From Clostridiales bacterium (GTDB lineage Bacteria; Bacillota; Clostridia; Christensenellales; Pumilibacteraceae), in assembly GCA_022508505.1 (NCBI GenBank), contig JAFLVC010000011.1, positions 1 through 64,000 on the forward strand: a DNA stretch of 64,000 nt, written 5' to 3'. A model generated the notes under the pieces. The model was not told where the DNA came from. It saw only the letters and a program-made list of their open reading frames with translations, and made no database searches. A program made the translations under genes and the position numbers. Below are positions 16,036 to 18,755 of this stretch, in pieces; position 1 is the stretch's first letter, and every line of letters starts with the position of its first letter.

Positions 16036-16467
16036 ATGGCAAAAAAGGACGCTGCAACGCCTGAGAAGGCCAAAGAAGAAAAAAAGAAGGACGATAAGAA
16101 GGAAAAAGGCAAGAAAGGCAAAAAGGACGCCGCCGCTGCCGGAGCACCCGCAGACGGACAGGCCGCAACTTCTCTTGCCAACATGTCGCCCGAGCAGATG
16201 ACGGCGGCACAGATTGAGCAAGCGCTCAAAGAGAGCACCGATCCCGAATCTCGTCTCAAAAGGCTGCGCAGCCCCATCAACGTGAGGAGCTGCCTTCTCA
16301 ATATTCTCATACTTATCGTCATGACGCTCGGCATAGTTATACTGTGGTGCTTCCTCGCCGTCGACAAGTTCAACTTCGGCACGGTGTTTTCGGATATGAT
16401 GAGCAAGTTCGGCATATCACAGGCTTTTGAGGGCTTCTGGAACTGGCTGACAGGGCTATTCAGTTAA
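16036..16467 (+). CDS. Lys/Ala-rich single-TM hypothetical protein
   Basis: 143 aa; highly basic N-terminus then TM LLNILILIVMTLGIVILWCFLAV; upstream TTGATT-17-TATAAT promoter-like sequence and terminator downstream. Confidence 0.75.
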   Translation: MAKKDAATPEKAKEEKKKDDKKEKGKKGKKDAAAAGAPADGQAATSLANMSPEQMTAAQIEQALKESTDPESRLKRLRSPINVRSCLLNILILIVMTLGIVILWCFLAVDKFNFGTVFSDMMSKFGISQAFEGFWNWLTGLFS

Positions 16468-16473
16468 ACTTTT

Positions 16474-16502
16474 TAAGGCGATGCAAATGCACCGCCTTTT
16501 TT
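16474..16502 (+). terminator. rho-independent terminator
   Basis: AAGGCGATGCAAATGCACCGCCTTTTTTG after the 16036-16467 CDS. Confidence 0.7.
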
Positions 16503-16604
16503 GTTGCTCACTTCCCCATCACGATTAACTAAAAAGCGCGGCCGAAAGGTGTATTTCTTAGGGATTTACCTGTGGACGAAAAAGCAAACTACACTTCGAA
16601 AACA

Positions 16605-16852
16605 AAGTATAGTGTGCTATACTTTTTATTGTAAGTGCATTTAGCAAATGAAATTGCTTGCTGCGCAAGCAGTGAAATTTTTAGCCTTGCGACTAAAAAT
16701 GAAATTTTGCTTCGCAAAATGAAATAAAATTCGCCTTGTAATGTGCGAAGCACATTTCATATTCCGCAAGGAATATTTCATAGCGAAGCTATTTCACTCG
16801 CCGTAAGGCGAATTTCATTGGGTGTTTGTGATATTCCCTATCACAAACACCC
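16605..16852. repeat. array of short hairpins separated by TGAAAT / ATTTCA spacers, ending in a 14-bp perfect hairpin
   Basis: Four TGAAAT spacers (16649, 16673, 16700, 16720) and four ATTTCA spacers (16754, 16775, 16791, 16812) interleaved with perfect small hairpins; GGGTGTTTGTGATA-ttccc-TATCACAAACACCC at 16820-16852. Confidence 0.9.
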
Positions 16853-16877
16853 GGAAGCCGCGCTTTTTGTTTGTGGT

Positions 16878-18755
16878 CTATTCGTCCGACGGTTTGTCGT
16901 TTTCCTTTACGTCGGTTTTTTCCTTTTCAGCAGTCTTGTCGTTTTCGGCGTCCTTTTTCGCCGTCGACTTGATCGGCTTTTTGGTAGACGGTTTCTTTGC
17001 CGCCGTACCGCTCTTTGACGCAGACTTTACGCCCGACCTTTTGACAACTTCGATATTGCTCTTTGCAGCGGTCGCTTGAGCGTGCTTCTTCTCTTCCGCT
17101 TCCTTTTCTTGCTTTGGTTCTTCCGTCGTCTGCTCTTCCGTCGGCTTTTCGTCCGTCTCTTCCCTGTCGTTTTCCTGCTCGATTGTTTCGACTTCGTGCG
17201 TGTCTATTTCTATTTCCTCTTCTGTTTCCTCGTTCTTTGCGGTATCGCCCGATTGTTCGGACGTGCCGACGTGGGACGGACCGCCGCGAAGTATAGACGT
17301 GATAAGCGAGAACGGATCGTCGAAATCGACCGCAGGGTCGTTGTTGGGCACACCCGGGAAGATTTCCTCATCAGGCTGTTTGACGTCGATGTATATCTCG
17401 TCGTCCTTTTGGTCCTCATAGTCCATGCCGAACACCGCCATTTTCATTTTGCGCGGGGTGGGCGCGACAATCGGATATTTCTTTGTAAGGCGGTACGTCA
17501 CAAACATCATGACCGCTCCTGCCACGGCGGCTATGCCGAGCACGACGAGGTTCCACACCCAGCCCTTGGTGAGAACGTCGGTGTCAGGGAAATGATCGCG
17601 GTCGTAGCTCATTGTGTCGATAAAATCCGCCGCCTTGAGCCCCTCGACGACGAGCGTCGCCGCCGCCGCCATTTTTTTGCCGTAATCGGGATACAGCTTT
17701 TTAAGGTTTGCGAGGGTGTCTTTTTCGGTGAGCTCGACACTGTCGTTTTTTGCCGACTCGGCGTCGGTCAGGTCAATCGTTTCCCAATTGGCGCCGATGA
17801 GGTTTAGCGTGGGGATATTGTGATTGAAAAACACGGCAAAGTCGCCGTTCATCGCCCACTGATAATACGGAATGCCGTTAAGCGCCGAAAAGCTCGTAAT
17901 TGCGGGGCTTTTCTGCGTTACCTTGTAAATATCCAACCCGTTTTCCTTTGCAATGCCGTCGAAAAACTTTTCGCGTTTTGTCTCGCGCGAATCACAGTAC
18001 GCGTACACGTGATCGACGCCCAACCGCTGAAGTTCTATCATGAGCACGGTGTTGGTCTTTTCCTGCGCCGTCATGCCCGAATAGAATTCCGATGCGCCCA
18101 AGCTCCTCAGTGCGGACGCGCCGAAAAACACAATCGTCACGCTATACTCGAGCACAGGCTTTTCAATCTGCAAGTGCTCCGCTATCGCGAGAAGCGTCGC
18201 TACGCCCGTGCCGTTGGAGAGTGCGCCGTGCGAGCGCGTGCCCGTTCCGTCGCCTTCGTACGGAGCGTCGTAGCAGTTGTCGTAATAAGCGCCGATGACG
18301 ACGTTTTTATGCGATTCGGGAATGCCTTCCGGCTCATACACCGCGACGATGTTTTGACTTGTCAAAACTCTGTCGTCCGATTTGATGTCGAACGGCTGCA
18401 CAAGCGTTTCCCACCCCGCGTCCGGCTCCGGCTCCTCGGGTTCCTCAAGCTCCTCGGGTTCTTCCGGTTCATCGGGCTCTTGGGGCGCTGCTGGTTTTAC
18501 GTAGCCGTACTTGGCGAGCTCTCTTGCGAGATATTCCGCCGCGTCCGCTTCGGCGGAGGTGTACCGTGTGCGGTCGAATCTGCCGCTCGACATAAACTCG
18601 TCGAGCTTTTGCTCCACGCTTTCCACAGATATCGTGTACGTGGAAGAATCTGCGATTTTATGCGCGGGTGCGCCGGGATCGGAACAGCCGACAAGGGCGA
18701 ACGCGGCGACGACGACGGAGAGCAATATGAACAAAACGCGCGTGAGTTTTTTCAT
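16878..18755 (-). CDS. M28-peptidase-like lipoprotein, probably non-catalytic, with C-terminal TM and long charged tail
   Basis: 625 aa; lipobox ALVGCS; VVIGAYYDNCYDAP...GALSNGTGVATLLAIAEHL...VTIVFFGASALRSLGASEFYSG; TM NLVVLGIAAVAGAVMMFVTY; acidic/Lys-rich tail. Confidence 0.75.
   Translation of the reverse strand: MKKLTRVLFILLSVVVAAFALVGCSDPGAPAHKIADSSTYTISVESVEQKLDEFMSSGRFDRTRYTSAEADAAEYLARELAKYGYVKPAAPQEPDEPEEPEELEEPEEPEPDAGWETLVQPFDIKSDDRVLTSQNIVAVYEPEGIPESHKNVVIGAYYDNCYDAPYEGDGTGTRSHGALSNGTGVATLLAIAEHLQIEKPVLEYSVTIVFFGASALRSLGASEFYSGMTAQEKTNTVLMIELQRLGVDHVYAYCDSRETKREKFFDGIAKENGLDIYKVTQKSPAITSFSALNGIPYYQWAMNGDFAVFFNHNIPTLNLIGANWETIDLTDAESAKNDSVELTEKDTLANLKKLYPDYGKKMAAAATLVVEGLKAADFIDTMSYDRDHFPDTDVLTKGWVWNLVVLGIAAVAGAVMMFVTYRLTKKYPIVAPTPRKMKMAVFGMDYEDQKDDEIYIDVKQPDEEIFPGVPNNDPAVDFDDPFSLITSILRGGPSHVGTSEQSGDTAKNEETEEEIEIDTHEVETIEQENDREETDEKPTEEQTTEEPKQEKEAEEKKHAQATAAKSNIEVVKRSGVKSASKSGTAAKKPSTKKPIKSTAKKDAENDKTAEKEKTDVKENDKPSDE

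Follow-up and report, generated by a model that had tools for sequence, protein, structure and literature searches.

The window analysed here is a stretch of 64 kb from a genome assembly of 1.89 Mb. In it, a plus-strand gene (16036..16467) and a minus-strand gene (16878..18755) face each other tail to tail, as had been read from the sequence alone, and between them lies an array of small hairpins enclosed in a larger module. The parts of the locus are:

16036 to 16467, plus strand: left neighbouring host gene, 143 aa, with orthologues in sister species
16475 to 16503, plus strand: this gene's own terminator, intact and outside the element, recognised from the sequence and from its sister-species counterparts
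16531 to 16542, no strand: left arm of a bracketing terminator stem (AAAAAGCGCGGC), which pairs with 16857-16868 and closes the MFE fold
16548 to 16564, plus strand: left end of a TIR-like module (GGTGTATTTCTTAGGGA), which recurs in L115-L134 and resembles the inverted right end GGTGTTTGTGATAGGGA
16583 to 16618, plus strand: the left module's terminator-like hairpin, multi-copy, with 80-90% identity in other species
16646 to 16730, plus strand: Gut-1 motif, left array half (TGAAAT), RF01706, 59.8 bits (gathering threshold 50)
16727 to 16739, minus strand: array centre (AAATTCGCC on the plus strand), where the strand of the terminal hairpin occurs a second time
16749 to 16820, minus strand: Gut-1 motif, right array half (ATTTCA), ending in hairpin 1 (TCGCC..GGCGA), RF01706, 68 bits
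16820 to 16852, no strand: 14-bp perfect hairpin, the palindromic right end of the module (inverted GGTGTTTGTGATAGGGA), abutting the array
16857 to 16868, no strand: right arm of the bracketing terminator stem (GCCGCGCTTTTT), pairing with 16531-16542 in the MFE fold
16878 to 18755, minus strand: convergent flanking host gene, 625 aa, which in sister species follows without an array

Nine perfect hairpins, with stems of 5-14 bp and 66 stem bp in total, lie within 16595-16852. Markov shuffles (2000) averaged 1.8 hairpins and 9.7 bp and never exceeded 6 hairpins or 33 bp, which rules out a chance origin of the array. This interval is the richest in hairpins among the 258-nt stretches of the window, and the density of eight spacers per 300 nt is reached nowhere else in it. 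The sequence-only reading had counted at least eight small hairpins with differing stems, set between constant spacers, and those that it named are all present; the four TGAAAT spacers on the left (16649, 16673, 16700, and 16720) and the four ATTTCA spacers on the right (16754, 16775, 16791, and 16812) were all located. The left-hand unit TTTTTAGCC..GACTAAAAA (about 16679-16699) does form a hairpin, but with an imperfect apex. The fold of 16528-16872 has an MFE of -127 kcal/mol, compared with -78.8 +/- 4.8 for shuffled sequences (z = -10). The array sits where it was first placed, at 16595-16852, but the true feature is bigger, extending over about 16531-16868. Likewise, the 14-bp hairpin at 16820-16852 is exact but is not a unit of the array, and its outer half matches the inverted module end at 16548-16564.

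Both halves of the array match the orphan Rfam family Gut-1 (RF01706) over the full length of the model and at or above its gathering threshold. The inverted arrangement noticed earlier corresponds to two head-to-head Gut-1 copies, with a plus-strand match on the left and a minus-strand match on the right. Gut-1 was described in 2010 from human gut metagenomes and was listed as not cis-regulatory and without mRNA affiliation (PMC2864571); no text on it beyond that paper was found in the open-access literature. The Rfam family is a single half array of three hairpins modelled as a non-coding RNA, whereas the arrays described here are head-to-head pairs with a centre able to close a long-range stem, and they are associated with terminators and with a gene for a four-helix-bundle (4HB) protein. 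A second copy in the same genome (C12, 82% identity) occupies an unrelated intergenic site, likewise within a terminator-like stem, and weaker relatives are found on C1 and C20. Among MAGs, with one genome per species, Gut-1 is present in 27 of the 74 genomes of the family; the order has it in 99 of 396 genomes and 50 of 142 genera, frequently with more than 10 copies per genome.

The left-hand 143-aa gene has orthologues across the genus, and in sister species, at nearly all of the sites read, the convergent large gene comes after a short terminator with no array between. Because this orthologous intergenic region lacks the array in sister species, the array in the window is lineage-specific. 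The tail-to-tail position and the strong fold might suggest a one-off 3' UTR or terminator structure shared by the two convergent genes, an explanation that we rejected and consider extremely improbable, given copies elsewhere in the genome and the order and array-free sister sites. The search of this genome and its relatives that the sequence-only reading had proposed thus returned further arrays as well as variation between species. Its suggestion of a mobile or generative process is partly supported: further copies and array-free sister sites bear out mobility, but copies match one another hairpin by hairpin with compensatory changes, which is structure-conserving evolution and lends no support to a process generating new hairpins.

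The module ends, GGTGTATTTCTTAGGGA at 16548 and the hairpin at 16820-16852, enclose the terminator-like hairpin and both arrays, and the same TIR-like module occurs in G006, G007, G009, G010, G002, and others. Most copies readable at both ends (about ten) lie inside a stem that is preceded by a run of A and followed by a run of T; the sequence of this bracketing stem differs from one copy to the next, yet its arms remain complementary. This pattern suggests that an intrinsic terminator took up the module in its loop and that, in the window, this terminator belonged to the convergent 625-aa gene. Several module copies carry arrays with a TGATAT spacer instead, and others (L128-L132) carry no array at all.

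The window copy may have moved with a MITE that targets terminator loops through its TIR-like ends, the array being a passenger. Dispersed copies with inverted, imperfect GGTGT..TAGGGA ends (L115-L134), the about ten copies in loops of differing A-stem-T terminators, the array-free copies, and contigs breaking at the right end all agree with such a vehicle, whereas the arrays at 4HB genes are left unexplained by it and no transposase ORF was found in the TIR-bearing contigs, which were inspected by eye and end at the repeat. On balance we regard this as a serious possibility, somewhat less than an even one, and it is compatible with the mobile-element reading developed below. A full autonomous TIR element with a transposase was also sought; none was found, the TIR-bearing contigs stopping at the repeat, and module copies showed no clear target-site duplication. 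In G002, G004, G006, and G007, contigs break where the module has its right end, a sign suggestive of copies so nearly identical that they collapsed. In L038 (the C12 copy) and L121, the loop of the palindromic right end is interrupted by a further hairpin-rich segment of about 90 nt, an insertion nested within the loop of a hairpin.

Several Gut-1 pairs in relatives adjoin an ORF of about 115 aa belonging to PF05635, the 23S rRNA-intervening sequence protein (hereafter the 4HB protein). Hairpin-rich flanks (z > 3) were found for 48% of 48 distinct 4HB genes of the family and for 7% of control segments, and the spacer varies by 4HB lineage (TGAAAT, GATAT, GCGATAT, GTTATAT, TAATGAAG, TGAATT, TGTAAT, and others). 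An independent set of 4HB genes was collected by protein search alone in GTDB genomes, from other Clostridia MAGs. In this set, which is biased to TGAAAT-type relatives because the query was an alignment headed by a TGAAAT-type protein, an array lies immediately upstream of 75 of 79 4HB genes (mean z 6.5), as against 5.6% of the other genes in these loci and 6% downstream (Mann-Whitney p = 1e-24). In 12 of 14 such loci, a plus-strand Gut-1 ahead of the 4HB gene is called by Rfam itself, with 11 of the calls at or above gathering. No description of this association was found in open-access papers on 4HB genes with hairpins or mobile elements. A second 4HB class (L066-L070 and similar) has flanking repeats of the AATTAAGAATTAAG (AATTAAG) type, in which hairpins are few.

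No 4HB/PF05635 ORF stands beside the window copy, which we therefore call gene-less; its full-length relatives do encode a PF05635 protein. The one 4HB gene of its genome goes with another spacer, and a TGAAAT-type 4HB gene is absent, so that the window copy has no evident partner at present. Judged against the complete elements, it shares their head-to-head arrays, constant spacer, and covarying stems and lacks the adjacent 4HB gene.

Complete elements usually follow the order tRNA, terminator, array, promoter, and 4HB gene, with an overlapping variable cargo gene next in about 30%. The 4HB start lies 212-285 nt beyond the end of a tRNA gene in 41 of 71 loci, compared with 0 of 64 for the downstream control, and a perfect hairpin of at least 9 bp lies between tRNA and 4HB start in 56 of 74. 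Homology between 4HB loci at different sites typically runs from the array start to the 4HB stop codon. A promoter-like, sigma-70-like site with at most two mismatches and a -10 element near -23 occurs between arrays and gene in 40% of cases, compared with 3.5% in shuffled sequences; the 4HB mRNA therefore need not contain the arrays. Adjacency to hairpins was scored at the TCGCC ends of Gut-1, which abut a hairpin of at least 10 bp in 9 of 21 cases as against 0.2% of random positions; a strict-spacer version of this score comprises only 14 elements in mixed orientations. At one tRNA site, TAATGAAG arrays follow the terminator in our genome (with a 4HB gene), G005, and G002, whereas most other sister species have a plain terminator there. 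In L060 (about 1515-1600), the hairpin abutting the Gut-1 array duplicates a tRNA 3' end (AACCCTGTATTGCCCACCA) in inverted orientation, and the tRNA-terminator-array segment of G014:C21 and G015:C30 looks inverted relative to that of sister species (G011:C46 and G013:C1).

The array of these elements begins with four hairpins, followed by a centre and then by three more hairpins. In 36 of 54 related loci, the centre copies hairpin 1's 3' strand, with 20 different sequences (5-14% for other hairpins), and TGAAAT plus hairpin 1 could therefore pair either locally or with the centre; in the window the long-range partner is 16727..16739. Such long-range pairing would enclose hairpins 2-4. Local hairpin 1 is paired in 80 of 80 cells (100%), with 24 double changes compared with 6 in shuffles and a covariation score of 0.89 compared with 0.30, and the long-range pairing is maintained in 95.6% with modest covariation. 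Strong covariation, together with the rating of 'Y', certainly an RNA, given by the authors of the 2010 study (PMC2864571), would fit the published view that Gut-1 is a trans-acting non-coding RNA and its copies ncRNA genes. However, covariation fits RNA and single-stranded DNA equally, the head-to-head pairing of copies makes both strands fold alike, the copies follow closely on terminators and precede the 4HB promoter, and they are numerous per genome and inserted species by species. We thus think it unlikely that Gut-1 is such an RNA.

Spacer and protein are inherited together. A shared spacer 6-mer is found in 0-1% of 4HB pairs below 50% identity and in 93% above 70%, and spacer sharing correlates with 4HB identity (Mantel r 0.715; best of 999 permutations 0.21); since part of this correlation comes from relatedness alone, it demonstrates co-inheritance and not binding. 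This co-inheritance and the presence of an array directly 5' of the promoter at nearly all 4HB loci might also point to a local control region of the 4HB gene, either an operator bound by the 4HB protein or an insulator against read-through from the tRNA operon. As many arrays, the window copy included, adjoin no 4HB gene, and insertions are species-specific, we find it doubtful that this is their main function, and control of the 4HB gene may be an additional role.

Among known systems, the intervening sequences (IVSs) of 23S rRNA share with these elements the PF05635 (S23p/4HB) ORF, a neighbourhood of hairpins, and repeats ahead of the gene. IVSs are reported to stand in place of the hairpin tetraloops of helices 9, 25, and 45; that of Coxiella carries heptamer tandem repeats ahead of its S23p ORF, the function of the PF05635 protein was described as not known, and a mobile-element role for rRNA IVS forms, proposed by others in 1993, is cited in the same paper (PMC4990558). 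Unlike IVSs, the 4HB-array elements lie outside rRNA, at terminators, with differing hairpins, their own promoter, and cargo genes; the window copy has no PF05635 ORF, and its site is a terminator-like stem between protein genes, not a 23S helix. We propose kinship because the protein family and the preference for hairpins are common to both, and this kinship is not proven.

Other systems share single features with the arrays. REP/BIME palindromes are likewise short and intergenic with a conserved adjacent motif, and are amplified in trans by one small protein; RAYT is a Y1 HUH nuclease. In the arrays, unlike in REP/BIME, the stem sequence is not conserved. Integron cassettes resemble the elements in having structured sites with variable cargo genes behind and, in some loci, a second array behind the first unit, but no attC core or tyrosine integrase was seen here, and every unit comes with a 4HB gene and a promoter of its own. 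PF05635 also turns up in the literature on diversity-generating retroelements, of which Avd is a 4HB accessory protein.

Taken together, Gut-1 arrays most likely form the cis-acting DNA component in a family of mobile elements akin to the 23S IVS elements, and the array in the window is probably a gene-less copy of such a small element, whose complete relatives carry a 4HB gene; this copy may have spread in trans or by hitch-hiking. In this family, the cis part would consist of two head-to-head arrays of short hairpins with a lineage-specific spacer (TGAAAT/ATTTCA, that is Gut-1, in the window); complete relatives add a promoter of their own and one 4HB gene right after the arrays, often followed by a variable cargo gene, and are placed right after intrinsic terminators, mostly of tRNA genes. 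The 4HB protein may bind and move the arrays. As its cis site it most likely recognises the folded array, reading spacer and hairpins in single-stranded DNA (or RNA), and it would guide insertion, with hairpin-forming DNA favoured. We know of no nuclease, recombinase, or reverse transcriptase activity in the 4HB family, and none is linked to the elements, so that a host enzyme or a replication-fork event must be assumed. This speaks against the proposal, as do the missing partner of the window copy, its position inside a TIR-like module that may move by an unrelated transposase, and the 4HB class whose repeats have few hairpins. Gene-less copies would be spread by a 4HB protein acting in trans or hitch-hike in the TIR-like module; the window copy would be non-autonomous, the module being perhaps its vehicle. 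If this is true, two orphans, an Rfam family without a function and the PF05635 proteins, would receive a single explanation, a specificity code between spacer sequence and 4HB protein is predicted, and many hairpin arrays of gut Clostridia would be mobile DNA.

A broader reading is put forward tentatively, as one that may well turn out otherwise: the elements would form a new class of mobile gene cassettes in bacteria, composed of array pair, promoter, 4HB recognition or mobility factor, and swappable cargo, with 23S IVSs and Gut-1 as its two faces. Units would insert beside terminators, chiefly those that follow tRNA genes, and line up in tandem, amounting to a cassette system whose variable cargo lies downstream of tRNA genes. 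The start of a different gene overlaps or adjoins the 4HB stop codon in 24 of 80 loci (L226-L305; for example, L232, L233, L240, L254, and L262), including genes for a HAD hydrolase, AAA_18, GNAT, ASCH, WapI-like immunity, and DUF6678 proteins, and these genes resemble cassette cargo. BLAST comparison of sequences 3' of the cargo gene revealed two conserved motifs of about 50-90 nt, a (L270, L276, L279, L282, L287, and L290) and b (L238, L239, L262, L275, and L280); they fit no Rfam family and are perhaps the 3' end of the element. A further Gut-1 array lies behind the first unit at L270:2849, L280:3101, and L262:1219, which suggests units in tandem.
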